A stretch of DNA of 64,000 nt. Origin: Daphnia pulex. Its lineage: Eukaryota; Arthropoda; Branchiopoda; Diplostraca; Daphniidae. A program made the position numbers and the translations under genes. The notes under the pieces were generated by a model. It had not been told where the DNA came from. It did no database searches and worked only from the letters and a program-made list of their open reading frames with translations. Below are positions 2,884-48,433 of this stretch, one piece after another. Position 1 is the first letter of the stretch, and every line of letters begins with the position of its first letter. The DNA is taken from positions 9,424,001 to 9,488,000 of the forward strand of contig NC_060025.1 of the NCBI RefSeq assembly GCF_021134715.1. Direction: 5' to 3'.

Positions 2884-3185
2884 TCTTCCTGGTTGTGTAG
2901 CTCTTCAAGAGCTGTTGACTGGGGAAAAGGAGATGAAATAGAGAATTAATTTAATTTTTTTTTTTTTTTCGATCACTTATCGACTGATTTGCCCGTTTCC
3001 TTTTCCTGTTTTCCTTGGGGTTTCGTGGAACGGATGAGTTTCCGTTTTTTGTTTCCACTTTGTTTGAAATCCCTTGGATGTATCTGAAAAAGAATCGATT
3101 TAAATTTGGAGCTAGGGTAATACCCAGGCTCCTGCAAAAATCCGGGCTGGATGACTCAATTAAGTGAATCTGGTTTTTTTCTGTT

Positions 3186-3465
3186 GTTGGTGGCGCCACT
3201 TGCGGCGTGCCACTACACTTTGCGAGAGAGGAAATAAAGTTTTTTTTTTTTTTGGTGGCGCCCCTTGCGGCGTGCCACTACACTGAGCGTGAGCGAGAAA
3301 TAATTTTTTTTTTTTTTTTTGTTGGTGGCGCCCCTTGCGGCGTGCCACTACAGTGAGCGTGAGAGAGAAATAGTTTTTTTTTTTTTCGTTTTTTGTTGGT
3401 GGCGCCCCTTGCGGCGTGCCACTACAGTGAGCGTGAGAGAGAAATAGTTTTTTTTTTTTTCGTTT
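3186..3465. repeat. Four tandem ~70-bp repeats in the BEL leader
   Basis: Four copies of a unit containing GGTGGCGCCCCTTGCGG and a CGTGCCACTACA segment, each followed by a run of 13-17 T. The units begin near 3189, 3254, 3324 and 3398 (spacing 65, 70, 74). The two leftmost (later in element direction) are more diverged than the two rightmost. They lie between the LTR and the Gag start. GTGGC/GCCAC ends could pair within each unit. Function unknown; leader repeats in other LTR elements can bind regulatory proteins, but nothing here shows that. Confidence 0.9.
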
Positions 3466-4376: not shown

Positions 4377-4836
4377 ATGTCTGCCTCTGCCAGCTTTTTA
4401 CACTACAACATTCATTCTAACTCTGGTTTGCAAAATTCAGACCAACATACCTGTCCACATGGTAAATTGTCCATTGCCAAGTGCAAAAACTAATACCTTA
4501 TAGGTTTTATTTACGATTTCTAGCATTTTTTTCGTACTCTTTAAAATTTTCAAAAGAAAAAGAAATTTCACGTGACGTTGGCAAAATTGTAGTCTGCAAT
4601 CTGGGATTGTTTTTCTGAATTTGCATTTGCCAGATTGCCAAAATGAGCCAAAAATTGGCATGTTTTTTAAAATTATTATTTTCTAGTTCTTTTTATTAAA
4701 TTTGTCTTAATGTCAATAAAAATGATTTTAAAAAAAGAAAATAAAATAAAACTTAATTTAATTTAATCATAATCGAATAATACCTGGTAATACGATAAAA
4801 CTAGAAATTGGCAAAACTAGATTTGCAACGCCCACA
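4377..4836. repeat. Dispersed AT-rich repeat, copy 1
   Basis: About 460 bp that align over most of their length with 18009-18424 in the same orientation. Shared landmarks are CTGCCAGCTTTTTACA at the start, a segment around TTTCACGTGACGTT, CATTTGCCAGATTGCCAAAA, and TTTGCAACGC at the end. There is no coding frame conserved between the copies and no clear terminal inverted repeat, so I leave it unclassified. The motif TTTGCAAA/TTGCCAA recurs inside. The BEL element abuts its left edge. Confidence 0.75.
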
Positions 4837-6859: not shown

Positions 6860-9800
6860 TTAAATGTGCGATTCGGCCGTGGTGTTGCCGCCGGATGGGT
6901 TGAGGTTGATGGTGAGGCTCGTGGGCGAACCAGCCCCAGCACCAGATAGCAGCCGCTGCTGCTGGGCTGATTGGCACGACTGCTGCTGCTGCTGGGTCGG
7001 GAAATTGGTGCGGAAGACAAACTTCTGCGGGCGAATTGCTGAAGAAGCGGAGCGGCTGCTGTTCACGACAGCGCCGCAAACGGCCGGCGACGATGACGAC
7101 GGCGAGTAGCGGCGCTGCGCTGAGTTGGCACCGCTGCTGCTGTTGAATGAGGAGCAACACCTTGCGCGTGCTGGAGGAGGACCGCCGTTGCTGGCCGATT
7201 CCTGCTGATGCTGGAAACGGCCCGAGTAGCTGGACTTGTAGGCCGCTGGCCCGGTAAATGGCTGGTTGTTGTGGTGGTGGTTGCTGGGCAATAGAACGCG
7301 GCACGATGACAAGTTCTTGCTGTGCTGCGACTGCTGCTGTGGTTGAGTTAAATGGTTGTTGGGGCCGCCGGTGCAGGTCGTGTAGGTGTTGACCCGTTGG
7401 AGCGGGGCACAGCCGTGATCGCCATGGGCGCTCCCGTGAGTGCCGCTCAGACGGGCGCCGCAACAGTCGCAATCGCCCGCCGTTCGGTCGTTCCACTCCC
7501 GTTCGCTCTCCATCAAACAGCGACAGCCACAACGCACGGCCAACACTTGGAAACCCTGGGCGCAAAAAACGGCAGATAAAATCGAATTTTAGTCATTTCA
7601 TTTGATTTCATTCTATCTAATATAATTGCGCCAATCAAGCGGAAGTCAAACATGACTCCCTCGACGTCACAAAAAGCAAAAATGGCCACCGATAAAAAAT
7701 AAATAAAACATGAAAATACTCGATCCGTATCGACACACACACAGAGAAATAAAACAAAGGGCTCAAAATACTCGTGTCAATTTTGAGATGAAAGTTTGGA
7801 TTTTGTTTTGTGTTTGTTTTTGGAACACTAGACGACGTGAAACGACACCCAAAGCTGTGCAATGCTGTCACACTCGCCAGCTGTTTACAATAGAGATGAA
7901 CAAACGATTAGAAAATTATAACGACACACAACAAGATATAAAGAGACAAGGGGACTGATTTGATGTTTCAACAACAAATCTAATTTGGGAAATGCACACA
8001 AGAGGAGAAAGTTTAACGTGTACATTACAGGTTTATAAGCCTGGGTTATTGTTGGTCAATGTTGATTGTTATTTGGTAAATTACCCGAGGGATCGTTCTA
8101 CGATCCTGAAGGGTAATTGAAATTGTATAAGAAATAAATGTAGACGACGACCCTAAGGGTGTAGACCTACATTTATTCAGCTTTTTAAAGAACAAAAAGA
8201 GGGGGGTGTGCTGCCCTTTCCTCTTACCTGCACACGCCCTTTGCCATTCAGACTTATAGCTACAGATCCGTGTACAGGGTTTTAACCAAACACAATTACA
8301 TGTTATCAAACATAATCAGAGAGAATTTCACACATAACTTCCAAATAACAGTTTGAGGGGGATACGAGAAAAAACCTGAGGACTTCAGGGTAAAAAAACT
8401 CTATCCCAAGGTAACATATCATGAAACACAGAAACATGAACATAATGGTTGCAGCAAAAAATAGTGCGCTTCTTCTTCTGGACAGCTCTGCCAACTGCCG
8501 TAACTTGAACACGTAATGGGGCCTTCTTACTTTCTCGCCAGTCTAGTTATTCTTGCTTCTAGAATAACCTCCAGCTTTCCGGCCACGAAAGGTTTGATTT
8601 CTACGCGTTTTTTCCAAAATTGAATGAATCATAATTAAATAAATGATGACACAGGGTGGGTATGGGTGGGAGACAGACCCTTAGGGTCGTCGTCTACATT
8701 TATTTCTTATACAATTTCAATTACCCTTCAGGATCGTAGAACGATCCCTCGGGTAATTTACCAATTGTACTGCGAAATGCATTTCGCCTAGACCCTAAGG
8801 GTGATTTTAAAGCCCAATGATGAATTTTTAATTTTGAACAAACATCGTTTGTGTCGACGCTCGATTGTAAAATCGATTGAACGTCGTTTCTTTTGACCAA
8901 CTTCCGGCTCGCAAGATTGCCTCCACCGGTACGCCGTCACTGACCGCTTTCGAAGCGGCCGCTCCTCTTGTGGAATGCGCCCCAAAACACCGAGTGTTTA
9001 TGCCGGCCTTTTGCAAGAACGATTTAATCCAGCGACTCACTGTACTGGCTGAGACCGGCCTATGGGGCGCGATGAGTGCAACAAATAGTTTTCCTTCGTC
9101 TGTCTCGCGTCTAAACTGATTCGTACGTTCCACAAATTCTTTAAGCGCCAAGACTGGACATAAAATCGGATCCGGATCATTTAATATTGAAAAGGACTGC
9201 AGCGGACCGTTCCGCTGTGCTTTCCGTAACCTATCTAATGAGAATACTACCCCTCTTTCTGAGAAGACGACGGATCGGTAACCAATTGCCGCTATCTCCG
9301 ACGCTCGCATTAAGGTAGCTAACGCTATCATGGTGACCAATTTACTAGCTAAGACGCTCAGGGTAAGGTGTCGGTTTTCGCCCAACGAATTAATAAATTC
9401 TACAACTTGACTCGGGTCCCACATGTCGTTGTACTTGGGCTTGGGGGGATTCTTGTGATAGCAGCCTTTCATTAATCGGACGACAAGCGGATGCGCGCCT
9501 ATCTGAACGCCTTCGATGGACCCCAGGGTCCTGGACAACATAGACCGGTGAATGTTGATTGCGCTATACGACTTGCCCGAGGCCAGCAAGTCGGTGAGGA
9601 ACTGCAAAACCTCGGTTAAATCCGCCGACAAGGGATCCGTATCCCTTCGCACACACCAATGTGTCCAGTTCCGCCATGCGGAATCGTAAGTTGCGAGGGT
9701 GGTCGGTCGATTTCCGGCCACAAGAAGGTCGACCACGTTCGACGAAAAGCCTCTGTCACGCAACTGTCGCCGGACAGTCTCCAAACGGCCAAGTGAAGTG

Positions 9801-12800
9801 CGCTGGATGCTAATAACGGGTGCGGCTCGTTCAGTGCCGATGTCAGGAGGTCCGGCTCCTGCTGAAGAAGAAATACTACGTCGCACGCTAGCTCGAGTAG
9901 CACCGGGAACCAGGCCTGACCTGTCCATACGGGGCAAACGAAAACTACGTCAGCTTTCTCTCTTCTAATTTTTTCCAAACATTGAAAAATTAGCGCAAAA
10001 GGGGGAAAAAGATACCCCGAAAGGCCCTTCCAGTTAACTGAAAAGGCATTTGTGTTCAACGCTTGCGGTTGCGGCCGCCACGAAAAGAAAGAGGGGAGCT
10101 GCGCGTTCCAATGGGACGCAAAAAGGTCAACTTTTGATGGCCAGATCTTTTGAACGCGAGAAAAAACGGATGGATTTAATTTCCAATCGCTTGCATCCGG
10201 TCCGGCGCGAGACTCTTCGTCAGCAATTACATTCAGCTTGCCGCTCAAATGAACCGCTTCGATTGCAATATTCCGGCTCTCACACCAAGCTGTCAGAGTG
10301 GTTGATAATTGCGTCAACGCTTTGGACCTGGTACCCCCGCCGTGATTAATATAAGCCACTGCCGTGACGTTGTCTAAATAAATTTTTATCGCTATACTTT
10401 CCGATACCGCCGCGAATGATTGAATCGCGTATAACGCGCCTAACATCTCTAGTTCATTAATGTGCCTCTTGGTATCTTCCAAAGTCCATGAGCCCCTCGT
10501 CCTCACATTATTACAATACGCTCCCCAGCCTGTTAGAGAAGCGTCGGAGAAAATCTCCAGATCTGGCACGCTAGGAAAGAACAACTTTTCCCTTTTTAAG
10601 CCTAGATTGTTGGACCACCATTCTAAGTCGTCCCTGGTTTCCGCCGATAGCACGCATTCCGACTTCAAATTAAATCCCACTTTTCTAGCTTGCTTAATAT
10701 AGAATGCCTGCATCCTCCTGAAATGAGACTGCGCAAAAGGTATCGTAGGTATGGCCCAAGTAAAGTTGCCCATTATCGACGCAATCTCTCGCAATGAAAT
10801 TCTGCTCCTGGCAAGGGCCGCATCGCATTTGGCCTTAACGGTTGCAGCCTTGTCCGACGGCAGCGAAAAGGAAAGTTTTACCGAATTAATAACCAAGCCC
10901 AGATACTCTATTACTTGCGACGGTTCTACAATTGACTTCTCCCAATTGATCAAGAAACCCAGATTTTGTAATAATTCAACCACTTTATTTACATCGGCTT
11001 TGGTGCTATCTTTTGATGTATTAACTATTAATATATCATCCAGATACACGATGAGACGCATGCCCTGCCTTCTCAGAAAAGCCGCCACTACTTTTAGAAT
11101 TTTCGTAAAATACCGCGGGGCCGGAGCTAAACCAAAAGCCAGACAAGTAAATTGAAAAATACGCCCCTTCCAGGTGAAACGCAAATATTTCTGGTGGGAG
11201 GGGTGCACAGGGACCGTAAGATAAGCATCTTTTAAATCCAACTTTGCTAGCCAGTCCCCTTCTCTCAAAATGAAGCGTGCGGAATCAAGATTTTCCATCT
11301 TAAAGTGTTCATACCGGATGAATACATTAAGTGGTTTAAGATTTACAATCGGGCGAAAACCGCCCGATTTTTTTGGAATAACAAATAGAGAACAGACAAA
11401 CCCATCCTCCCCGCTATTCGAAATTTCTACAATGGCTTTCTTCTCAAGTAAATCTTTTACTTCCTGGTCGCAAACGCTTGCCATCTCTTTCGACATTGTT
11501 ATCGGACGCGGAAGTTTAGTTTGATTCGGGGTTTCTACAAAATCTAGCTTAACCCCGTTTGACACGCTGTCTAGGACCCAACGATCGTCCGTAACAGTCT
11601 CCCACATTTTAGCAAAATGTAAAATACGCCCGCCCACATTTTCACACACAACAGTATTGCGTAAAATTTGAATGGGATCAGAAGGAGGGACGAAAACATA
11701 CCTTTCACCTCCTCGAGTCCAAGCAGTTGCACCCGGCGGTCGTCCTCTTCCGACCCCACCACTCTGCCTCCCTTCAACGGGAAATTGGGCCGCTGCTTCT
11801 CTCCTTGGGCGCAACACCCGTTGAGATGGGCCTGGGTTCACTGCTACCTTTCTTCCACCTGCCTTAGCCCTCGCTCGAGCCGCCGATGAGCTTGCCAGTG
11901 TGGCGTCTTGAGACGCCTCCTTGAGCATCGTCTCTAAGAATTTGTCCGTGAAAAGGAGCTCAGTTGCCTCCTTTCCCGGTGCGAAAGCGTCAGGGTTTGA
12001 CAATATGAAGTCATATGTCGGTTCCACCAATGTCACAACCGCTCGCCTTCTTCTTTGGGTGATGTGGTAGTACGCTCTACCCCACTGTTGTAAAACGGCC
12101 CGCACCGTATTCTTGGCTTGCGTCACCGTTTCTCCCTCTCCAAGAGCACACACTTTAGCGTATAAATCAAACAGAGGTGGGGCAACGTCCATTATTTTAA
12201 GCTGAGTCTGTATAAGCGCTTCCTCCGAAGCATTAACCCCTTTCAATCGATCTTTGTCTTTAGCATGCCTCAACATAAAGCCGTCGAGCTTAGGCGGTTT
12301 AATCGAGAAAGTCGGGTCCTCAAACTCGAGCTCAAATTTCTTTGAGATTGCTTTTGAATCGTCGGTTGACAGGCCAGTCGTTAGCCAAACCCTAATCTCG
12401 TCTGAAATCGCTGTTGGGATGAACGCCGTCACTTCCCCTGATTCACTGGCTGCTTTGGATGAGCCTGCCGTGGCTGCCGCGGCTGCCGCGCGCGTTGGTT
12501 TTAGAGCCTTCCCTTTCGACTTAGATCCGGCGGCAGGGGCTTGGGGAGTACGCTCCTTTGGTAGCCATGGACGGTCCACTAGCTTTGGACCCCCCTCGTC
12601 TAACTCTTCTTCCTCTTCGTCCTCTACTTCAAGATACTCGCCATCTTCTTCGTCTTCCTCCTGTCTGCTCTCCCGCTTCTCTCTTTCTTCCAAGTCTCTT
12701 AGCTTGCTAAAACGAACGTAGGCTTCTTCTTCGATCCTATCATCTAACGGAAACTCGGCGCCATTCCCCCGTTCCTTCGCACGCCCCCTTGGTCGATCCC

Positions 12801-15800
12801 CCACATCATTTTGATAAAACCGGTCTCCGTGAAAAAACTGATCACGCGGAGGAACGTCAAAAGCCGGTGGTGGAATCACGGGTGGAATATTAAACAATGG
12901 CGGTTGAGCGTCAAAGGAGGGAGCCCACTCTCGATAGTTTCGAAGAGGAGACCTTTCTCTATCTGGATAATCAAAGTGAACAAAACGGTCGCGTGGCTGA
13001 CCATTCCAATCACGAGAACGATTTGCCCAATCTCTAGCTTCTTGTTCAGTACGAAAACCTACGGCCCGTGGGTCCATTCTCTGGTGCCTATGCCAACCAT
13101 AAAAATCACTAGGGCCTGCCATTCTGAAATTCTGACTGCACTGTACGCGAGCTGAAATAAGTCTGAATGGCAAAGGGCGTGTGCAGGTAAGAGGAAAGGG
13201 CAGCACACCCCCCTCTTTTTGTTCTTTAAAAAGCTGAATAAATGTAGGTCTACACCCTTAGGGTCTAGGCGAAATGCATTTCGCAGTACAATTCATAACC
13301 TGGCAACACAGCAGGGGGTTTTTGATTCGATTCATTTTGGTCGTCAACGGAAAAGGGAAATATAAGAATTCGACGGAAAACCGTGCGCACCTCATGCAGT
13401 TGGAACCATTAGTCCTTTATGTAGTTGCTCTTTGGGGATTTTGTGATGTATAGATATTATGTTTTAGATCAGCTCCTAGTATATAGACTCATCCGCCCTT
13501 TATATCCGAGTATATATAATACTGGAGGGTATACAGTTACGTCTGGAAGTTGTTTTGTTCTGCTGCTGTATTTGTTTTTGTTTGGGCCAGAATCCTAGAC
13601 AGATTGGCCGGCAATATAGGAAACAAGGAAAAAACCAACTTGTAATAGTACTTGATGCGTACACAACTTCCAGACGCGATTGTATCCACACACAGGAAGG
13701 GGTTCGATGATTTTATCTCGTCTAATTCGTATAGCTGTTGCCCAGCAAATGCAAGCGGGAGGGATGAACCAAATAAGAAGAAAAAAAGGACAAGGTATAT
13801 TGACTTAAGATTTTTTTTTTAAAAGAAGAAGAATAAAAATAAAGGCTAGAGATGATATATATTTGTCTTGAGTTGGCTTACCTTTCGTCTTTCGTCAACC
13901 GAGAGAGAGATAGAGACAGGGGAAGATTATATAAGAGAGAAAATATAAGAGAGAGAGAGAAGCGCATGGCCATTTTAAATGTAATGTTGAATGAGATTTG
14001 TCTTATCGTATTAAAAAGGGGGGCGTCTATAGCAGCCAGATGAGGACAACTTGACAAAAAAATAAACGGAGAATCGATTCGTTTCGAGGATCAGAGAGCA
14101 ACCTACGCTAATCCAAATATAGCCAATCCGAAAAGAAAGATTATACCTAGCATCTACTACATCTATGATGTCATTAATTTAAAGAGGAATAGATCGGGAG
14201 CCTGTCGACTATTAAGACTTATTTTTAAAAAACCCAAAAAGGTATAAAGCCACCAGGGCAGATTATATGCCTTCGTCTAGTTTTAATATCGGAGAGAGAG
14301 TAGACGACAGACGTCGGCGGCAATTAATAGCCAACATTTCGCACATCATCATGATTGAATTATATAGACTCAAAGAGACAGAGGCGTCGGTTGGGGGCTG
14401 GAGCCGGCGGGATTAAATAGAAAATGTCAAAAAAAAAATGAATTTTGCGTCTGGCTGGCGCTTTTACCTGTCTGAATTTCGAGTTGAAGCAGCAGTAGAT
14501 GATTGGATTGTAGGCCGAATGCGACATGGCCAGCCAATGGCAAGCGAAAGCCACAAAGTTGATTTTACTCCACGTCCAAATGCCCGGGTACTGATCTCCA
14601 ATGATCTGTATAAGCCATCGATCCAGCCCAAATCAATAATATTATTATTCGTTTCCTTTTATTAGACGTCTAGATTTGTTTGAGGTGCATATTCAAGTAA
14701 ATGTATATACAAGAAAAACGTACCTGCAAAAGGTTGAAAGGAAGCCAGCAAAAGGCGAAGAAGAAGACGACGATAATCATCATTTTGATCATCTGTAGAA
14801 GCCCAAAAACATTTAATTTAACCGGGTCATCTTTTATAATATTGGCAGGATAAGGATAAGGGCTACCAAAATGGAACCGAATTGATTTCAATTTCCATAT
14901 CAGCGTAAGTCAAATAGAATCAGCCGAAATGGACAGAATAATGACGAGCCGCTACTGCCCAATATCCCTATAGCCCTGGAGGAAATAGGGTATAAGAGAC
15001 GGAATCTTGTCAAGTGTCACGATCAATATAGATCGCAGTTGGATAGATATCGAAGCTGCTGGGAGACTTGATTATTATCCCGAGATGTATTGATTAGTTT
15101 TGGGAGATTCTCTTTTGTTGTTTCTTCTTCTTTTTTGGGCTGTCTGGCAGTAGCCATGCGTCGTTGCTCCCATAATGCAGCACCAGTTGATATCAGCACA
15201 AGAGGCTGCTGCTGCTGCCGCTCACTTGCGTGTCCTATTAGTAATATTATTAGCGTCTCTCTACTCTTGTCTTTTTTCTTTCTTTCAAAGGGGGTCGACG
15301 TAGTTGTTCTTTCCACCCTTTTATTTCTCGGTATCTAAGCTTTTTGTTGTAGCCATTACCGGGAACACAAAAGAGAGTCTTGTAATAAAATTTGCCAGCA
15401 GCAGCGCTTCCAGAAAAAAGACAAAAAAAGTCCATCATCAGTCGGCAATAACAACTTATCTTCGTTCGCATCTTATTAGAGATGATGGCAACTAATAACC
15501 ATTGCGACATGTATCAGGAGACTGTTGTGCCTATCGACAAACACTCGGCCTTCTTCTCTGTGTTTCGTATTCACATATTCGATATGTATCCTTTGTTTTG
15601 ATGGCCCCCCAACGGACCAATTTGCGTCCTGTTATTCCTGTCAATGTTATTGCCCTTGCCCCCTCGATAATAGCTTTTAGTGAGTGCCTAAGAATTTCTC
15701 CAGTTGCTTTTTCTCGGAATTTTTCACCAGCGCTTGTGAGGGGGGATAGGAGGAGATGATGACCGATGGAGACCAAATTAGCGTCTTCTGGCTCAGCTGC

Positions 15801-18800
15801 TGGACCTTTTTCCCCCACCCCTGGGCTACTTGGAATCGACACACACGCACATCATATATACACGTGTACACATATCCGAGCTGTCTAGTGAACACGCAGA
15901 CACACGCACGAATCTACTGTACGTTCCTAATAGCAACTATATGACGGGGGTCGGCAGTCTCACAGCAGCAGCAACGCAGTCAATGAACAAACAAACAACT
16001 GAAACTGTTGTTGTTAGCTGGCCTTGGTGCTGTCTATAATCAACTCCAGTTGTTGATCCGGAAGCATTGCTAGCACGCGCCCGTGTGTGTCTGTGTATAT
16101 ATACTTAATCTTTACTTGTTTGGATGAACTCTCTCTGAGAGGTGCTGTCCGGTGCACGTCGAGAGATTTGGCTGGGCCCGACAGGACTGGCACTTTCAAT
16201 CCGCCCACCCGCTGATAGCGCTACGTGCCAGAGTGTATAAACGAACGGAATACACAAACACACACATAAGACCTGGCAGTTCAAACGTGGATTCTATTAT
16301 TCCAACTGCCCGGAATAATCTCATCGCCATTTCTACTCTATATGCAAAATTGCAAAGAAAAGACGATCGAAAAAGAGTCATACCTTGCGTTTGGAGCGTG
16401 CCAATCGGAGATCGCGGTGCTGATGAGCTTCTCCTGGCGTCTTCTTGCCCCAGATTTCCAGTCCGATTCGGCCGTAAGTGAAGACAAGGACGGCCAGTGG
16501 GAAGCAGTACTGCAAAAGTAACAAGACGGTCGTGTATTGCGTCTGCTGGATGGGGTCGGCCCACACTTCAGTGCAAATGTAACGGTCGGAGCAAATGTGC
16601 CAATTGCTATTCTCCGGGATGATGAGCTTCGACATGAGGAGCAACGGCATGGCCGTCGCAAAGGCCGCCAGCCAAACGGCCACGATGATCCACTATAAAA
16701 TGAAAAATACCAAACAATTGTAAAATTAGAAACTCAACTTAAGGCGTTCTTCATTGTCATAAACATTGGAGGGAGCGGCGGATACCAAGAAAGAAGAAGC
16801 TGCTGCTCGTTTCGTTTGTTGATTGCACGAGGAGTTGGCTGGCTGTTGCAGCAATGTTGCACGTTTAAAAGCAACACAAGAACGAACTAGCGTGGATGGG
16901 AAAGCCGAAAGAAATAAAGAGAGAAAAAGACGAGCTCTGTTTTCATCACTTTCGTCTCTGGCCGCTTTCAAATATTTACCGGAATTTTATCAACGGAAGA
17001 AATGACGCGAGTATTTACACGTTTCATATGAAAAAGACGATACTTCCTGTCTGATGTCGGACCAGCTATTTTCTCATTTCAAGACGATGTAAACCCAAAC
17101 TTACGTATACACATCCAAGTGGCAACTTTTTGGTCCTAGTACAACTTTGGTTGAAATTTAAAATTCTTCATCTTTTCAGCATTTTCTCACATCAAATATT
17201 GTAATACGCTTCCCTTGCAGAGTGGAGGCATCGGATTTGGCTGGCTTTGCGGAGGCTTTGTTACGCAATTTGAGCCATATGACGCAAGTCTCACATTACA
17301 GGTGCACTAATTTGTGCACTGCCTTGATGCTGGACAAAGTTGCCAGCTTGCGTTAGCTCCTTATTAACTCGATAAACTTCCATTTCCATTGAAATGATGG
17401 ATAGAATTCAAGAGCCGGGGGGGCGTACCATCACGTGCATCGTATAATATTATCCTGCTCGAAAATGAGTCAATAGAATTTCCAATGCCTGGCTGATGAT
17501 GCTGACACGGTTCGAATTACATCAGCCTAGAATTAGTAACACGAGCCATTGGATAGTCATGAAGACGGAAGACTTGCTGGAAATGGCGTATAGTACCAAG
17601 CTCGATGAATTCACCTGTCAATTAGCGTCGAGCACATGCTAGCCTTGCAATAAAGTTTTAAAAAACTAAAATAAAATAAATTCAATAATCTGATTTTTCT
17701 AGAGTCTAACACGATGAAACAAAAATTGAGTTTTTGGTATTAAACAAGATCATAAACGAAATGATGTTACAGTTTTATCTTGTTGTCAAACTGAATTAAA
17801 AAACTCGCTAAACAAATTCCTAGAACTCGCTGCATAAAAAAAAAAAGACTTTGATTTAGTTCCGAGTGTTTCTTTGGCTTCACCAAAGAGAACCACCAAG
17901 TGACTTGTTCACATGGATGATGTTGGCCAAGAAGACTCTGTGAAGCCTGAAATGATCATCATTTTCTTCTAATTCGTCCCTGGCCTCTGTCAACAAAGAA
18001 AGTGTGCTATATGTCTGTGTCTGCCAGCTTTTTACATTAAAACTAACATTTATTCTCACTCTGGTTTGCAAAATGCAGACAAAGATACTTGCCAAAATGG
18101 TAGAATTTCCATTGTGAGGTGCACAAACTATTTACTTGTAAGTTGAATCTATGATTTTTACTATTTTTTCGTACTCTTAAAAATTTCAAAAGAAAAAGAA
18201 ATTTCACGTGACGTTTGCAAAATTGTAGTCTGCAATATCTGGGATTGTTTTTTCGAATTTGCATTTGCCAGATTGCCAAAATGAGTCGAAAATTAAATTG
18301 AAAGTTTTTTTTTAAATTATCGAGTTCTATTCACTGATTTTGTCTTAAAAAAACATAATTAAATAAAAAAAAAATTGATAATATGATAAAACTAGATATT
18401 GACAAAAGTAAATTTGCAACGCTAGCACATGCAAATTAATTTAAATAAATCGCTGGGGGGGAACAGCATTGGAGCCGTTGGCGCTTGCGGCTAAGAAATA
18501 ACAGAAATTTTAAAATCAGCCGATGGTTGATTGATATTATCGATTGAATTCAAATATATTCTATGTATTTAAAACATTTATATAATTTTGAGCAAGCGTC
18601 AATGGTCAATCGATGGAAATAGTCGTGCAGTTTGTTGTGGCTTATAATTTAACGGATACAAACACACACGCAGTTTACGGAGAAAAATAATCCGGGAGTA
18701 TGTAAATAACTGACAAATGACGTGACTTGTATACTCTGGCCTGTCCCGGGGGTGATTGTTAATGGTGACGAGCCATAAAAAAGATAAGATGTCACACAGC

Positions 18801-38005: not shown

Positions 38006-38727
38006 AGTCCATAGAAGATTTTTTTTAAAACGAAACGCGTCTAAATTTGAAGTACATTTTCCTTTTTTTCCTTTTTTTTGCAGTATATAATGTAACATGA
38101 GAATGAGCAGTGTCGATACTCAAATTCATTTTAGGGACAGTTTTCATGTTTTAAACCTTGTTTGACATTAGGGTGGAGAACGTTTCGAATTTTATTTTTT
38201 TGTTGAAATCAGCACAATACAAACCGCCGGTCGATTGCAATCCAAATTTTAAAATTCCGGCCGGAAGCATTCCGCACAAAAATAAATTGAGCAACAGCCG
38301 TTGTTCTCTGAGACTGGACTCTGTACTTCATGATTTAGTCGTCACTCGTTCATGACTTGTTCTTAGGTGTCTACATGTGATGTCGTACCACCAATAATAA
38401 ATTAAATCAACACTTACCACTAACCAGGTAGCAGGTAATTTTCAATGAAACGTGAAATCTTGGTGAATGCTGGTGATGTGGCTAATCAAATGCATTAGAT
38501 TTGAACTCATCGGCTGCTATCGGGCTGATTATAGCAAACGTCAATATATTTTTTGGTTAACTTCGATATTGATCCTTAAATTTCAATGTCCTTTTTTTAA
38601 TTTTGTTATACTTAAAAAATAAAAAATGATTAATCTAGAATACTTTTTTGTTTAAATTTTAATAAAGGAAACCTGGTGACGCTGCGTCTGTGTTTTGAAA
38701 ATCTGATTCGGTAGAGTCGTAATAAAA
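38006..38727 (+). promoter_or_regulatory. 3' UTR of the upstream gene and NCAPD3 promoter region
   Basis: A polyadenylation signal AATAAA at 38396-38401 suits the upstream gene. The rest should contain the NCAPD3 promoter and 5' UTR; no TATA box is evident near the ATG at 38728. Confidence 0.5.
38396..38401 (+). terminator. Polyadenylation signal AATAAA
   Basis: Canonical hexamer about 390 bp past the stop codon of the uncharacterised plus-strand gene. Confidence 0.4.
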
Positions 38728-41700
38728 ATGGAAGATAACGTTGAAATTTACCAACAAACTGTAGCTTCAGAATTGGATTGTTTACAATTGGATAAACTTG
38801 AAACAGAATGGATAAAGGAAGTGATCGACAACGACTTTTTGCAGTTTCAAGACATTCCACTGCTTTATGATGAAATTCTGGAAGAATGCCATATCACTTC
38901 ACGATTAATTCATTTACAGAAAGCTTTTTTGCTGTGGTTAGAATCAAATAAGGGATCATCTGAGGATAGTGATGAGGTTTCTACAGCTACAAGACAGTCA
39001 CTAGGTGGTTCACTGATGCCAGAAAATACCTCCGCTGCTGTCAACATCAACCTTACAAACAATGGGTCCCGCTTCTGGAGTTTTCTGTTTCAAGAGAAGA
39101 AAGTGAATATCCAAAGTCTTTTAGCTCTCATTGGTTTCTTTATTGACAGAGGTTCAACACTTTCCAGCACCCATGAAGAACGCCAAAGATGTTTTGAAGC
39201 TGCCCAAATGTATTTCACAATGATATGCATACCCGCGAGCATGGCTTTCAGAGTCTTTCATCAAATGCTCTATATGAAGGCATTGCAACTTGTCCAACTA
39301 TATGTGCAGACTAGAAAATATGCACAGAAAAGTGCACTTCAATCTCAACAAGCTAAGAAAGGTCACAAGCAAACACAGCCTGAAGCAGAATTTGAAGATG
39401 AAGAAGAAGGAGAAGCTCCGATTGGACCAGAGGAAATAGCTGCTGTTGAAAAAGCCATGTCAAGGTTTTTGGATGCTTTATTTTTGGTTGCTCAGCATCT
39501 CTCCTTCAAACGATATCCTAACATTTTAAAAGAAACTGTTGAATGCATACTACCAGCAATTATCAACCTAGATAGGGGAGCAGTGAGTTTGAAGGCTCTT
39601 GAAATCATACACAACTTCTGCAATCCACTTCATGGTGATGCTGTCCAAACTGTCCATCACGTCTTTGTACATATTTTACCGTACCTGGTGCTTGATCCAA
39701 GTGAAAAAGACTTAAATAACAAGAATTTGGTGGCCTTAAAAGATATCAGCTTCAATTTAGTCAACAGCTTCATCTCCAAGTTCGGAGAGATCATTTACCC
39801 TCTCTTGCATGGACTTATTAAACACGTTTGTGTCGAAGTCGTCGATAGAGCAGAGTATCGTCATAAAACAGCCCAAACAGCTCTAGATTTGCTCCAACTT
39901 ATTCCAGAAGAGCACCGACAAGGTATTTAATTATTCTATCATTTTAAATTGTATATATTGAAAATAACTTGATTTTGTTTTTTAACTATTGTTATTATTA
40001 TTTTCTAGGGACTATCCGTTGGTTCCTATTACTTGCTCACACGGAGCAAGCCTTCCTTCGTCTGTTTTCTTTGGAAATACTGTCAATTCTATTGCAAAAC
40101 GGCCAAATTGACATGCTCACTTTTGCTGTTATCTTTGGCCAATGCTCCGATCAGTCAGCAACTGTTAGAGCCAAAGCACTTTCCATACTGGGTGAATGTA
40201 TCGAGTCGAGCGATCGCTCTGTTGTTGAAATATTCGACATAATTTTTAGTGAAGAAGTAGATAGACAAACAACTGGCGCCGAAGAATTAGAGGAAGAAAC
40301 TGACATTGTGGAACTTTTGCAAGGAGAGGAGCCCATCAACATTACTGCTGCGCTTTTGCCTAAAGCATCTGTTATTATGAATCTTCTCAAGGAGCGTGCC
40401 GTCGACGAAAAAGTCCATGTGCGTAAGAATGCCCTGCAATTGCTGCTCTCGGTCACTCGACGACATAGACGCTATCTTACTCAAGATTTTGTTAAACTCC
40501 TTGGAAATGCGTGCCGTGACGTCGCTATGCTCATTCGTCGCAATTCAGCTCAAATGATGACAGATCTTTTGTGCGAACACTCAGAAAATGAAGCCGTTCA
40601 AAAATTATGGGCTCGATCGGTACTACCCTTGGTAATCGATGGTGAGACGCGTGTGCAAGAGAAAGCACTTGAATGTATATCGCGATCATTGGTCGGGAAT
40701 GACAGCCAGAAAGGTTGGATTCTTTTAGAAGTCATCATCGAACTAGGTTTGGACATCTATTTGAGCAAAGCCGTCGAAATGTGGTCTCGTCAACAACAAA
40801 TTCCAGCTCAGCTTTTACGAACTCTACTTTCAAACTCCGAGCAGCGTCCCCGAGCTGCACTAACTCTCGTCGCAATTTTCGCTCGCCATGCGATCATTGA
40901 CAACAACGTCAAGGTATTCAAATATATAGTCTATCATTCTACAAACACGCCAAAACAGTCCTACACATTTGCTTTACATGTTTACAGAAATTTGCCCTTG
41001 ATTATTTGCAAGAAAACATTGGATCAACAAATTCGGTGAATATTTATTGTATACAGCAAGTATACAAAGTGATTGGAGCAACTCTACCTAGCATGAGCAA
41101 GGAAAATGTACAAACAATACGGTATATGAAGATTCTCTGCAATAGAATATTCATTTTTTAATTTATAACATTTTATCCTTCCAGTGAAATTTCAAGCCGC
41201 TTCGTTGCCAATTCGCAATTATCTACAAACGTGATTACCACTGCTTGCGACATGGTCGTGTTTTGTATTCAGCAGCAAGTAGCCGATGAAGACAAAGCAC
41301 GCAAAGAAGCTGCTGAATGGGCAGGTGAAATTATATCCAGTTCCGGTGAATTTCTTAGCATCCATCTCAGAAAACAAGTATGCACCATTTAGTATTTTTT
41401 ACTGGATAAAAATACTAAAGATGTTTACAATGTAACTTTTTCAGGAAAATGTTTCGCCAGAAGAGGAAGAACAATTGGCACGACGGATTCTCACTCTAGG
41501 CTGTGTTGGCCTGCACTGTCCGCAACAAGTAAACAAACGACACTTCTTGCTGTTGCAACACGCTGCTTTTCAACCAGACGAGAGTGGAGTCGATGCTCCG
41601 ATTCCTTTATCACAGCCGCAGTCACAACCCAAACGAAAACTTCCTCCACGTTTACAAGCAGCCGCTGTCATTTCGCTGGGTAAACTCAGCGTTCAACATG

Positions 41701-43013
41701 AAGAGATGGCTAAGCGGGTATACGTTTTTAGAATTGATCCATTTTATGTGGCTTGACTTATTCATCTCCTAAAACGTTTCTCTCAGCTCATTCCTGGTTT
41801 GGGTCGTTTACTCGAGACGACGCCACATGAGGCTGTCCGCAACAATATCGTATGCTGTTTGTGCGATTGGGTTATCCGTTACGCGACAGCCATCGATCCT
41901 GTTATGCCTCAAGTAACGGCCTGTTTACGTGACCCAACTCCCGCTGTGAGGAAACAAACTCTTGTCTTACTGATTCACCTCCTCCAAGAAGACTATCTGA
42001 AGATCCGGGGCACATTCTTTTTCCGCATCCTGCAGCTGGCATGCGATGACGATGAAAGTTTACGGGACCTGGCTCTTTTTTATGTTACCCAGCGTTTACT
42101 CCATAGACGACCTACCATTATCCAGCAACACTTCATTGAATGTGTATTCCATTTTAATGACTACAAGGGTCACCCAACGTACAACCGACATGCTTTAACG
42201 GATCGAGAGAACAAACTATTTTCCATTGCTGGTCTGTATACATTTTTCCTTTGCTCACTTTAGATTCCGAAATAATTTACCAAATTTGCTTATGTAAATT
42301 CCAGGACAACAGCATAGCCGTCGTCGATTTCAGATCTATCAGTTTATGCTTCAGAATTTAGACGACGAGGCGAGATTTCAGCTTACATTCCGACTTACAC
42401 GCGATGTGCTCCATGGTGTTGTTGAAGAAGTTATGTCTCTCAAAAACGCTTCCACTGAGGCTGTGTTGAAAGATGCCCTGGCTGTACTATCCTGCGACGA
42501 CATCAAACTAGCCTCTCTGTCAGCTTCAACGGATGACGATCCCGTAGAGAATGAAGATATAGCTCAAGCTATCGTTCAGTCCACAAAAAAGGCTATTATC
42601 GCGCAGGTTAGTACTCAGATATTTCGTCTTTTTCGATTTACTAAGTCAACACTTTTCGTTGGATTTGGCGATAGGTCGTAAAACGGAATGTTATCGAAAA
42701 CATTGTACCGATTGTTGTAGCTTTGAAGCGCAAGCTAGCTGCTAATAAATCCTCACTGATGGGCAACTTAATGCTTTTTCTACGAGAGTTAATGAAGGAC
42801 TATAAAGATGAGATCCAAGAAATCTTAGCAGGAGATCGACAGCTAATGGTTGAAATTGATTTGGACATGAAACGATTTGAACAACAAGAGAGGATGGAAG
42901 CCGAATCGCCAACACCCCGAGTAGATCGAACCATACCACCCCCAGAATTAGTTAATCCACGTGAGGATGAGCAAGTAAGAGTTCAATCGAAAGACAGGCA
43001 ATGCCAAGGGTGA
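38728..43013 (+). CDS. NCAPD3: Condensin-II complex subunit D3 (NCAPD3), 8 exons
   Basis: HEAT-repeat subunit of condensin II, which shapes and compacts mitotic chromosomes. Exons: 38728-39922, 40009-40913, 40988-41121, 41185-41377, 41445-41717, 41787-42231, 42305-42606, 42675-43013; total 1261 aa. Every junction is GT-AG and phases agree. Recognised from long HEAT-like stretches, especially LLQEDYLKIRGTFFFRIL and DPTPAVRKQTLVLLIHLL in exon 6, typical of the condensin subunit C-terminal region. An acidic linker (EFEDEEEGEAPIGPEE) lies near residue 230. The ATG at 38728 follows AAAA, a good arthropod context. It is shorter than human NCAPD3 (about 1500 aa), mostly at the C-terminus. A GTAAGA donor at 42974 inside the last exon may splice to another frame, so the C-terminal ~13 residues are uncertain. 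Confidence 0.9.
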
Positions 43014-44924: not shown

Positions 44925-47900
44925 ATGGATGCAGAAGAATTCTGTTTGCGGTGGAATAACCATCACCATGTTTTAGTTAGTGTTCTTGACAAATTGTTGG
45001 AGAAGGAATCTATGTGTGATGTGACTCTTGCCGCTGACCATCAATTTGTTAGAGTTCACCGATTAGTATTGTGTGCTTGTAGCAACTACTTTGAGGTAAG
45101 CTGAACATTAGTTTTGTAGATGCTGATGGTAATTTGTATTCAAATGCTTTTATTTTCTTTCCAGGAAATGCTGAGCAAGCAAGTCGACAAACAGGCATTC
45201 ATATTCTTAAAAGACGTCAGTTTTCCAGAACTCAGAGCACTTGTAGATTACATGTATAAAGGAGAAGTAAATGTTTCTCAGGAACAACTTGCTAGTTTTT
45301 TGCAAACAGCTGAAGCCCTTGATATCAAAGGTGAGTTATTTTTTTAACATTTATCCTACCACATAGATCCAATTTTGTGCTCTTACAGGATTGGCATATA
45401 AAGAAGGTGACCAGTCTAAATTCAAATCTGGTCAAAATGCAAGGACTAATGCTGCCAAAAGAACACTAAGTGAATCAACATCAACTCCGTCAGTTGTATC
45501 GACTCCCAGCAATTCTCAACGACCCGAAAATGACAACATTTCACACACTCCTTCTCAGAACCAATCATCCTCTAGACCAAAACCGCCTCCTCCCAAGAAA
45601 GCTCATGTTGTACCATCAGAATCTCCTACACATCCAGCGAACACAGACTCAGATGACCTCTTTGTTGTCGATACGAAAATGGAATCGGAATTAGACTCTG
45701 ACCACATGGAAGACCAACTAGATAATAACGGACCAGAATGGGCATCACGGGTATGTGTTAAAGAGTGGCAGAACTTTTCTTATTAATGTTAATTTCAATT
45801 TTAAAAAATCCCAGGACTGTGACGACGACTGTAGCACATCTGACAACGGCATGATATCCATTGTACCCAACTCGACCCGCGATATTACCTTTGGTAATAA
45901 ACTACCAGTCATAGTTTATAACACACCCCTATTTTTAAAAACTTATTATTTTTTTATACCAAGGCCCCTCTACATCAGACACGCGAATGGGAGATAATGT
46001 TGCCGGTCCCTCAGGAACACAACCCCAGGCTAACAATTCATCTAGCGTCGCTGCATCTCGAGGTAGGCATTCCTCTTCAATATTAATCCTCTACTTAGTG
46101 CTAGATTCTCTCTCGTACCGTAGTCTGCTCTCTTTTTGATCCGCCTTCCTTCTGCCCCTTTTGAAAAACGCTCTGGTGTCGTTGTTCACGACATTCACGT
46201 GGATGAACCTGCATTAGCGACCCGAATCAGGTTTCTTTTTCTTGTTTTAATTCCCTCAGTCGTGCAACATTGCTTTTATAAGCAGACACGCTGAAGATGT
46301 CTAGTTTTTATTGAACCCGGAAGAGGAAGAAATAAGGGGAGATAGACAGAAATTAGGTTTCATAGCTAAAGACAAAACCAAATATTCCGAACTTGACGGG
46401 TGACTTTCTCCGAATTAATGTATAGGTGACTCTTTGGACGTACCCGTGGACGACAGTCACGAATCGAATCGAATGATTGCCCCGGCAGTCTGGGCAAGGG
46501 GTCCTGCAACCGTTTGTCCGCGATGTTCGGTCAGGTTCTTTCGGGTTAGTGCCCTGGTCGCCCACTTGCATTCGAACAAATGCGACTTGGTGATCGGTGA
46601 CTATGTCGGTGACTATGTTTAAGTGTCCTTTAGCCTCGTGCACTTTCACCACACGCCACCAAGGAAATCTCAAACGACACTTTTTGAAGAGGCACCCTTT
46701 ATGAATCAAATGCAAATTCAATTCACTCGTCAATTCTTATTTTTGTCCCTCCATTACCTGTGCTGTTTCTCTTCAATAAACAGAACTCAGATTGATTTTT
46801 TTGTAGACACAAAATCTGTCAAATCAAACGACCATGCGAAAATTGAATACAGGTCCAGCGAATCTTTTTGAAGCTTGACCAATTAATTTTGAGTGAAGTT
46901 ATTTTGACTTTTTTTTTTCTCTCATTGGTCCCTTGTAGGTCCCTTATAGGCCAACGGACCTATAAGTCCAACAGATTTTTGTACCGTCATCTGCGACAGG
47001 GTTGTGGCGAAATAGCGTCCGGCTACCGAGAAGAGAAGTTTCTGTCAAATTCTCGATGGACAGTAGGTGATCAAGATCAATCGAGGGTGTCTTGCCCGGC
47101 TTGCCGTCGGACTTACAAGGATAGGCGAAATTTGTTAAAGCATATACGTTACAGCGGAACGTGTGATCGACCGAAAATCTTGCAACTCCTCGGACTTTGG
47201 CCGAGAAACAACCTCGTCTGAACGAAAAATTGTAGGAGACGAAATCGAGTCGGAAAATCGGCTCCCAATCAATTTGATTTCCCCGTCATTCCACGACGTT
47301 CTTCTCTGTGCACGCATTAGGCCATTTTGAAAAAAAAATCCCCTTTCTCTGGATTGTAATTTGTTTTTTCGGTTATTAGCTCAGAATGATAAAGATTGGG
47401 AAGTCTCTAGTTCAGTTACTTTGATTTGATGATCCTGTTTTTATCTTAATGGTTCTCTTTCTCCGTTTTTTTTTCCCATCTTCTGAACCCACAGGTGATG
47501 ACGGGAAGGACAATCGAGTCATTTGCCGGGTCTGCCATCGGACTTATAAGTCGTGGAAAAATTTGTTGCAACATTTGCGCCGGGACAACACGGGCTGCGC
47601 ACAACCCAACCTCATCTCGCTCATCCAAGAAAATCGCAGAGTCTCGTATAGGAACTATGCGCGAACCCTGGCCATCGAGGCCGACCCTGAAGCTCACCAA
47701 CCCCTGATCAAATGTCCCAATTGCCATTTCAGTTACAAGTTTAAGAAGGATCTGTACCGCCACTTGCGCATGGGCTGCGACGAGATGACGACGGCGACGA
47801 CCGTCGGCTCCCGCGACGGCCAGTTGTGCGACTTGCCCGTCTTCCGTTGCAATTTTTGCCCTTACGTCACTTTCGTCAAGTCGTCCGTGCTCAGACACGT

Positions 47901-48433
47901 TCAAAGCGTCCACAGCAATTGATCCCACAATGCGACTCTTTAAAGAAATCCGCTTTTTTTGTTTTTGTTTTCTATTTGATGTCCACTTTCACAGAGGCCG
48001 ATCCTAATTGATTTGATTCCTTGTTTGTCTTTTTGTCGCCCCATTGCCGCCGACAGGTGCCCAAGTGGACGAGCAAACTCGAGTTGTTTACCCCAATTGC
48101 CACCGGACTTATAAGTACCGAAAACTATTGTATCACCACCTGCGACAAGGATGCGGAGAAATAGCTTCCGGTTACAGCCAAGACCAGCCATTCCCTCTGC
48201 CCGTCCACCGTTGTCCCTTGTGCCCTTACATCACATTCATAAGGGGATTCCTAAACCGACACGCCGTCACCGCTCACGGCCAAACCTCCGTGCATATTCG
48301 TAACCCCTCAGCTGAATTTTTCAGTGTCGTACCAAATGAGATCGTTGTCCACCAATCAACAACGGATGCCACTGCTTCCAGTCAATCTGCTGGACCGTAT
48401 TCCGGCTTAAAAAATTCATTTCAGATTTTTTGA
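44925..48433 (+). CDS. lola/TTK-type BTB zinc-finger transcription factor with alternative 3' exons
   Basis: Nuclear transcription regulator of the arthropod TTK/lola BTB group. Constitutive exons: 44925-45095, 45165-45330, 45389-45750, 45815-45893, 45964-46062. The BTB domain is residues ~1-112 ([20 protein letters not shown] ... [16 protein letters not shown] ... [17 protein letters not shown]), followed by a Ser/Pro/Asn-rich linker with PPPPKK and an acidic stretch. The shared part ends after one base of a codon (G|). Four downstream exons each start in the matching phase and end in their own stop: 46426-46622, 46950-47221, 47495-47922, 48057-48433. Each would add a different Cys/His finger set to the same BTB module, as in Drosophila lola. 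Start context GCCATGG is good. The isoforms are inferred from phase and splice sites only. Confidence 0.88.
46426..46622 (+). CDS. Alternative 3' exon A: single C2HC finger
   Basis: Acceptor TATAG at 46421-46425 and entry phase compatible with exon 46062 (CGA G|GT GAC). It encodes about 65 residues including one finger, [17 protein letters not shown] followed by LHSNKC, then a short acidic/hydrophobic tail and TAA. The last ligand is Cys, as in exons B-D. Could also be a minor or unused exon. Confidence 0.6.
46950..47221 (+). CDS. Alternative 3' exon B: damaged first finger plus intact second
   Basis: The usable acceptor (CTTATAG) is at 46943-46949; the one 10 bp upstream would bring in an early stop. 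The first finger keeps only its second half ([17 protein letters not shown]) and has lost the leading Cys pair. The next segment, [10 protein letters not shown], is shared with exon D. The second finger [17 protein letters not shown] ... GTC is complete. Ends TGA at 47219-47221. Confidence 0.55.
47495..47922 (+). CDS. Alternative 3' exon C: three intact fingers
   Basis: Acceptor CCCACAG before 47495, entry phase matches. Fingers: [17 protein letters not shown] ... [19 protein letters not shown] ... GC, and [17 protein letters not shown] ... H. This is the best-preserved exon of the four and probably the source or least decayed copy. Ends TGA at 47920-47922. Confidence 0.75.
48057..48433 (+). 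CDS. Alternative 3' exon D: first finger lacks its first Cys
   Basis: Acceptor CGACAG before 48057, entry phase matches. The first finger reads [22 protein letters not shown]: the first ligand is Tyr (TAC) where Cys (TGC) is expected, one base away. The second finger [17 protein letters not shown] ... H is complete. A 40-residue tail rich in Ser/Thr/Gln follows. Shares GEIASGY with exon B. Ends TGA at 48431-48433. Confidence 0.7.

Follow-up and report, generated by a model that had tools for sequence, protein, structure and literature searches.

A DIRS1-like element in a receptor intron of Daphnia pulex, its near-identical copies and a hairpin beside the crossover

Models of the rebuilding of DIRS element ends and of their integration date back to 1985; the portion of PMC5633606 available describes the process as not fully proven. 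In the same portion, DIRS-1 of Dictyostelium has inverted terminal repeats (ITRs), an internal complementary region (ICR), a tyrosine recombinase (YR), a proposed circular intermediate and templating by the ICR, and in all of these it resembles the Daphnia pulex element described here. The two differ in that DIRS-1 has three partly overlapping frames, whereas gag and pol lie in a single frame here, and in that DIRS-1 is said there to prefer its own copies and to have no apparent sequence preference, while all 10 copies found here lie at ATT-type sites. For D. pulex itself, the accessible text of PMC2996953 counts 19 intact DIRS elements, which fall into 16 families, and the available sections of PMC3266345 describe the same DIRS architecture. 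The closest match in those sections is DpuDIRS3, which, compared by description and not by sequence, is like the element studied here in its length (5195 bp), its ATT ends and AAT circular junction, its ICRs of 38 and 89 nt and its extension on the right side only. However, its conserved ITR is 170 nt rather than 109 nt long, and it is without the long ORF overlap found here (322 nt). The present family may be one of those described in the two D. pulex papers.

The element and its place in a receptor gene

The window is the whole stretch of D. pulex DNA that was analysed, 64 kb in length. The original prediction placed a structurally complete DIRS-like element at 8075–13291, within the last intron of a neuropeptide receptor gene and oriented in sense with it. 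Those coordinates proved correct to within 1 nt (8074–13292 with the terminal A of each end counted), and the structure is indeed complete, with ITRs, an ICR, an intact RT/RNase H frame with YLDD and a YR frame.

8074..13292, minus strand: whole DIRS1-like element, left (5') end at 13292 and right (3') end at 8074
13253..13292, minus strand: left terminus, exactly complementary to the ICR segment that copies it (8763–8803)
13157..13265, minus strand: left conserved ITR, 109 nt, with 100% complementarity to its right counterpart
8149..8257, minus strand: right conserved ITR, 109 nt, with a sense CAG/GTAAG and a sense AATAAA
8074..8160, minus strand: right terminus including the right extension, exact complement of ICR 8677–8764
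8677..8803, minus strand: ICR, with 8677–8764 copying the right terminus and 8763–8803 the left terminus
9616..13122, minus strand: gag-RT-RNaseH ORF with a candidate MT segment, from the ATG, 1168 aa
11884..12429, minus strand: conserved gag domain, 182 aa, predicted all-helical
10891..11379, minus strand: reverse transcriptase domain (Pfam RVT_1, E 7e-22), YLDD at 11035–11046
9868..10185, minus strand: Dam-like methyltransferase-type stretch, Pfam Dam 16.6 bits, below the 28.1-bit cut-off
8828..9937, minus strand: tyrosine recombinase frame, 369 codons, Phage_integrase E 7e-12

Three pairs of inverted-repeat arms, each 100% matched, define the ends: 8149–8257 with 13157–13265 (109 nt), 8073–8160 with 8677–8764 (88 nt) and 13253–13293 with 8763–8803 (41 nt). 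Perfect arms of these lengths far exceed chance. The two parts of the ICR overlap at 8763–8764, and their meeting point is the junction sequence A-ATT. Assignment to the PAT or Ngaro elements, which needs split direct repeats and no ITRs or ICR, was rejected as the terminal repeats are inverted.

The open frame around gag-RT-RNaseH extends over 9616–13206 on the minus strand (1196 codons) and overlaps the recombinase frame. The coordinates of the RT and Dam-like domains were computed by hand from residue numbers. An AlphaFold model of the gag domain was of low confidence (mean pLDDT 61, pTM 0.48), and the Dam-like region, though a sub-threshold match, is conserved between elements. YLDD and four acidic RNase H residues showed no variation in 8 aligned elements, nor did the YR residues R211, H321, R324, W347 and Y357 in 9 elements; we take the invariant residues of both proteins to have catalytic roles. 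Going by the RVT_1 match and the invariant acidic residues, the RT and RNase H appear to be of the Ty3-like kind, and the predicted tyrosine recombinase has its catalytic residues R, HxxR, W and Y in place. Such completeness had been thought exceptional. It is not unusual in the D. pulex genome: all ten copies found are full length, and in each of seven other elements (L019, L021, L026, L027, L028, L030 and L034) the YR frame is open and gag-pol forms one long frame, of 943 to 1158 codons.

The surrounding gene comprises five exons, all on the minus strand like the element, and the predicted sense orientation in its last intron was borne out.

3' end at 19190, minus strand: receptor exon 1
16692–16384, minus strand: receptor exon 2
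14792–14724, minus strand: receptor exon 3
14605–14468, minus strand: receptor exon 4 (14605 counted by hand on the sequence)
7555–6860, minus strand: receptor exon 5
7556..14467, minus strand: intron 4 of the peptide GPCR gene, containing the element in sense orientation

The conceptual receptor protein matched Pfam 7tm_1 (E 1e-57), and its best PDB matches were the neuromedin-K and neuropeptide FF receptors. In the right ITR, the sense CAG/GTAAG at 8223–8230 is a consensus splice donor, and sense AATAAA motifs are present in the element as TTTATT on the plus strand at 8172, 8699 and 10984. An influence of the element on receptor splicing is possible but unsupported. The sense orientation, the donor and the AATAAA motifs could be read as signs of a host role in splicing or polyadenylation of the receptor tail that retains the element in the intron. 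We regard such a role as extremely improbable, since the donor belongs to the ITR, the identical sequence is present at nine other places and the insertion seems too young for a selected function.

Elsewhere in the window, a HEAT-repeat protein with a Cnd1 match (condensin-like) is encoded at 38707–42263 on the plus strand, and a C2H2/BED-type zinc-finger frame was found at 47425–47922 on the same strand. A 74-bp tandem repeat, T-rich at its start, occupies 3174–3460 in about four copies. Two similar minus-strand frames (LILAIWQMQI...KNNPR), at 4510–4692 and 18046–18330, may both derive from a single dispersed repeat. Scans of the 64 kb for Rfam families and tRNAs gave no matches.

Copies, age and relatives in the genome

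Near-identical copies were sought throughout the genome (133.19 Mb, 13 contigs, one assembly), and at least ten full-length copies were found on seven contigs when the best 40 of 80 candidates were scored. Eight of these ten are identical across 5217 bp. L012 differs from the identical copies by one substitution, while L016, the most diverged, differs in nine scattered alignment columns. Among the matches listed, the next were at most about 88% identical, apart from short terminal ones (95% over 39 nt and 91% over 85 nt), and so no old remnant of the family was seen among them. The nine closest copies together show 1 difference in 46,953 bp. Per site and generation, Daphnia mutation rates are a few in 10^9, which would put the age of these nine copies between thousands and a few tens of thousands of generations.

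There are signs of the recent activity that had been suggested, the activity being read from the identity of copies in one assembly. We are close to certain that a DIRS1-like family has very recently multiplied in D. pulex by way of the end templating and integration at ATT considered below. Ectopic gene conversion, or an artefact of the single assembly behind the comparison, might also make copies identical with no recent burst. This is very unlikely, as the ten copies have distinct flanks on seven contigs, the differences in L016 are scattered, and no half-converted or fragmentary copy was present among the matches listed.

For two other DIRS families of the same species, Dpul_D16 and Dpul_D5, the accessible part of PMC2996953 reports putative somatic gains in mutation-accumulation lines. 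Their primers match other elements, for example at C5:6988040 and C10:7199844, and had no match in the window element with up to 3 mismatches. Of the primers in Table 5 of that paper, the D16 primary primer matches exactly at 4 places in the genome, the D5 primary primer at one place and the D16 secondary primer in L034; the D5 secondary primer had no match among the element loci fetched. With one mismatch, the D16 primer was found at 30 places in the genome.

A short derivative of Dpul_D16, 2.76–2.82 kb in length, is present in at least 28 near full-length copies (best 40 of 43 candidates scored). One copy (L043, 518–3335) retains the ITRs, the ICR and the hairpin described below and is missing large parts of pol and YR. 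In another (L044, minus strand) a 276-codon gag frame is open and pol is in pieces in different frames. Comparison of gag in L044 and L034 gave a dN/dS of 0.16 over 263 codons, which suggests that the gag of the short derivative remained under selection. Between L043, in which the gag start is altered, and L044 the value was 0.42 over 211 codons. The derivative resembles an element that keeps gag alone and is otherwise dependent. The distance to a contig end is no more than 60 kb for three of its copies (C7:11398, C6:23890 and C11:6543024).

End templating, junctions and empty sites

L016 carries a one-base insertion and a substitution that are both present in both of its ITRs, as expected if one template yields both repeats. 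The right terminus was also compared with the ICR of the same element and with those of other elements. In 10 of 12 elements the match to its own ICR was 100%, the exceptions being L022 (90%) and L031 (97.5%), while the match to the ICRs of other elements averaged 66% with a maximum of 87% (132 comparisons). This count leaves out 7 of 19 rows: L018, which belongs to the same family as L019 (own end and ICR 100% over 77 nt), L025, with only 33 nt, L027, where no end was found, and L023, L032, L033 and L035, in which the script did not recognise the YR frame. In these last four, the end matched the ICR at 93% over 96 nt, 99% over 80 nt, 83% over 35 nt and 91% over 87 nt, respectively. The match is imperfect in the older elements (L022, L031, L023 and L035).

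The junctions of the ten copies with their flanks were then read.

13290..13292, minus strand: left junction trinucleotide, ATT in 10 of 10 copies
8071..8073, minus strand: right junction trinucleotide, AAT in the window copy and ATT in 8 of 10 copies

The background frequency of ATT in the rest of the window is 0.028. In 9 of 10 copies an A precedes the ATT of the left junction, and AAT is found on the right in two copies, that in the window and L015. The joined flanks of the ten copies were searched against the genome for uninterrupted sites. Those of L013 gave seven matches (three at 100% and one each at 99% and 97%, with two at 93%), and the three 100% sites, when read, had one junction trinucleotide against two in the filled site. 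Four of the seven lie with L013 on contig 6 at a spacing of about 4.6 kb. The region C6:2067310–2091233 (L039–L042) consists of units at this spacing that contain gene-like frames with cysteines, one unit being interrupted by an element copy. L012 had one uninterrupted paralogue, at 86%, and none was found in the genome for the other eight copies, including that in the window. Insertion was at the circular-junction sequence with no further target-site duplication, as seen at the junctions of ten copies, two of which have a right-hand AAT, and at the empty sites of one copy.

The end and insertion comparisons, drawn from sequence, fit the published circle model. Under that model, the element RNA would lack the outermost ends. 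Reverse transcription would rebuild these from the ICR and copy both ITRs off one template, as the comparison of copies supports, and the ends would be joined into a circle with the junction A-ATT. The tyrosine recombinase would then recombine this junction with a chromosomal ATT-type site, to leave an insert flanked by ATT on both sides with zero target bases lost, as the uninterrupted paralogous sites of one copy indicate. One such event would have put the window copy into the receptor intron.

A hairpin beside the crossover

8079..8118, minus strand: bipartite hairpin beside the crossover, with covariation across 13 elements
8719..8758, plus strand: copy of the right-end hairpin within the ICR

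In 14 of 17 rows, among which L032 repeats L031, the terminal 62 nt on the right fold into an outer and an inner helix, which are separated by an internal loop and closed by a loop of 3–4 nt. The exceptions were L028, with a single uninterrupted helix, and L025 and L033, which have none and whose right ends are doubtful. The energy of the hairpin was 3.2 to 6.4 SD below that of dinucleotide shuffles (14 rows, with L028 and without L032). Raw folding energy does not set it apart, as equally stable stretches were found in the last 4400 nt of all 14 elements, the sole such stretch in L021 being at its own ICR copy of the hairpin. Where that end is clear, the hairpin lies 3–7 nt from the ATT.

Because the MAFFT alignment misplaced the loops of short-stemmed elements, pairs were counted according to their distance from the loop, with arms typed by hand from the fold outputs. 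In 13 rows (L028 dropped), 97% of pairs were standard and both sides change at 9 of 12 positions. Neither the pairing score nor the covariation score was reached by any of 2000 shuffles, and the double-change count was reached by 3 of 2000, while the count of extra pair types, which 583 of 2000 reached, was not above the shuffles. This test ignores relatedness and the 13 rows include close kin, the similarity of right ends being 92% among L019, L020 and L022 and 89% between L029 and L031. With L020, L022 and L031 dropped, the result holds in the remaining 10 rows: 115 of 118 cells were paired, both sides change at 9 of 12 positions, and no shuffle in 2000 attained the observed value for any of the three measures used. 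In every one of the 13 rows, the 5' side of the internal loop has one nucleotide more than the other side.

The position close to the ATT would suit a double-stranded palindromic binding site for the recombinase, with no folded single strand, and such a site would also give the covariation of the arms. That explanation is plausible, if somewhat short of probable; the 5' loop asymmetry, constant while the arms vary, is a better fit to a folded strand. We suggest, tentatively and as the less expected outcome, that the bipartite hairpin with its constant one-nucleotide asymmetry and covarying arms, beside the crossover and in the ICR, is a folded-strand signal of DIRS elements that would be read as structure, either by the recombinase or in ICR-templated end formation, somewhat like the recombination sites of integrons, which act as folded strands. 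In the circle model, it would probably aid one of these two steps, end formation or recombinase recognition.

A hairpin at the left end was dropped as a general feature, being clear in only 5 of 11 rows (the window element, L019, L020, L022 and L028); L026 has a different one. A 16-bp perfect palindrome at 13269–13284, with its ICR copy at 8772–8787, occupies that place in the window element.

Scans of viral contigs and genome contigs found no relatives outside the D. pulex genome, and the hairpin rows are all from that genome. The words hairpin and palindrom are absent from the main text of PMC3266345, PMC2685390, PMC9210276, PMC4157794, PMC5941688 and PMC6681497; in the available portion of PMC5633606 they refer to other things and in PMC4482531 hairpin refers to knock-down constructs. 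No published description of the right-end hairpin was found in the literature covered, outside which most primary DIRS papers lie, and none of the listed titles or opening lines of abstracts concerned a structure of this sort.

The ten near-identical copies, the exact empty site and the intact sister elements provide comparative support for end templating and recombination at ATT sites, and the family marks recent transposition in a species that serves as an ecological model. The hairpin is a concrete structure that is open to testing with purified recombinase.
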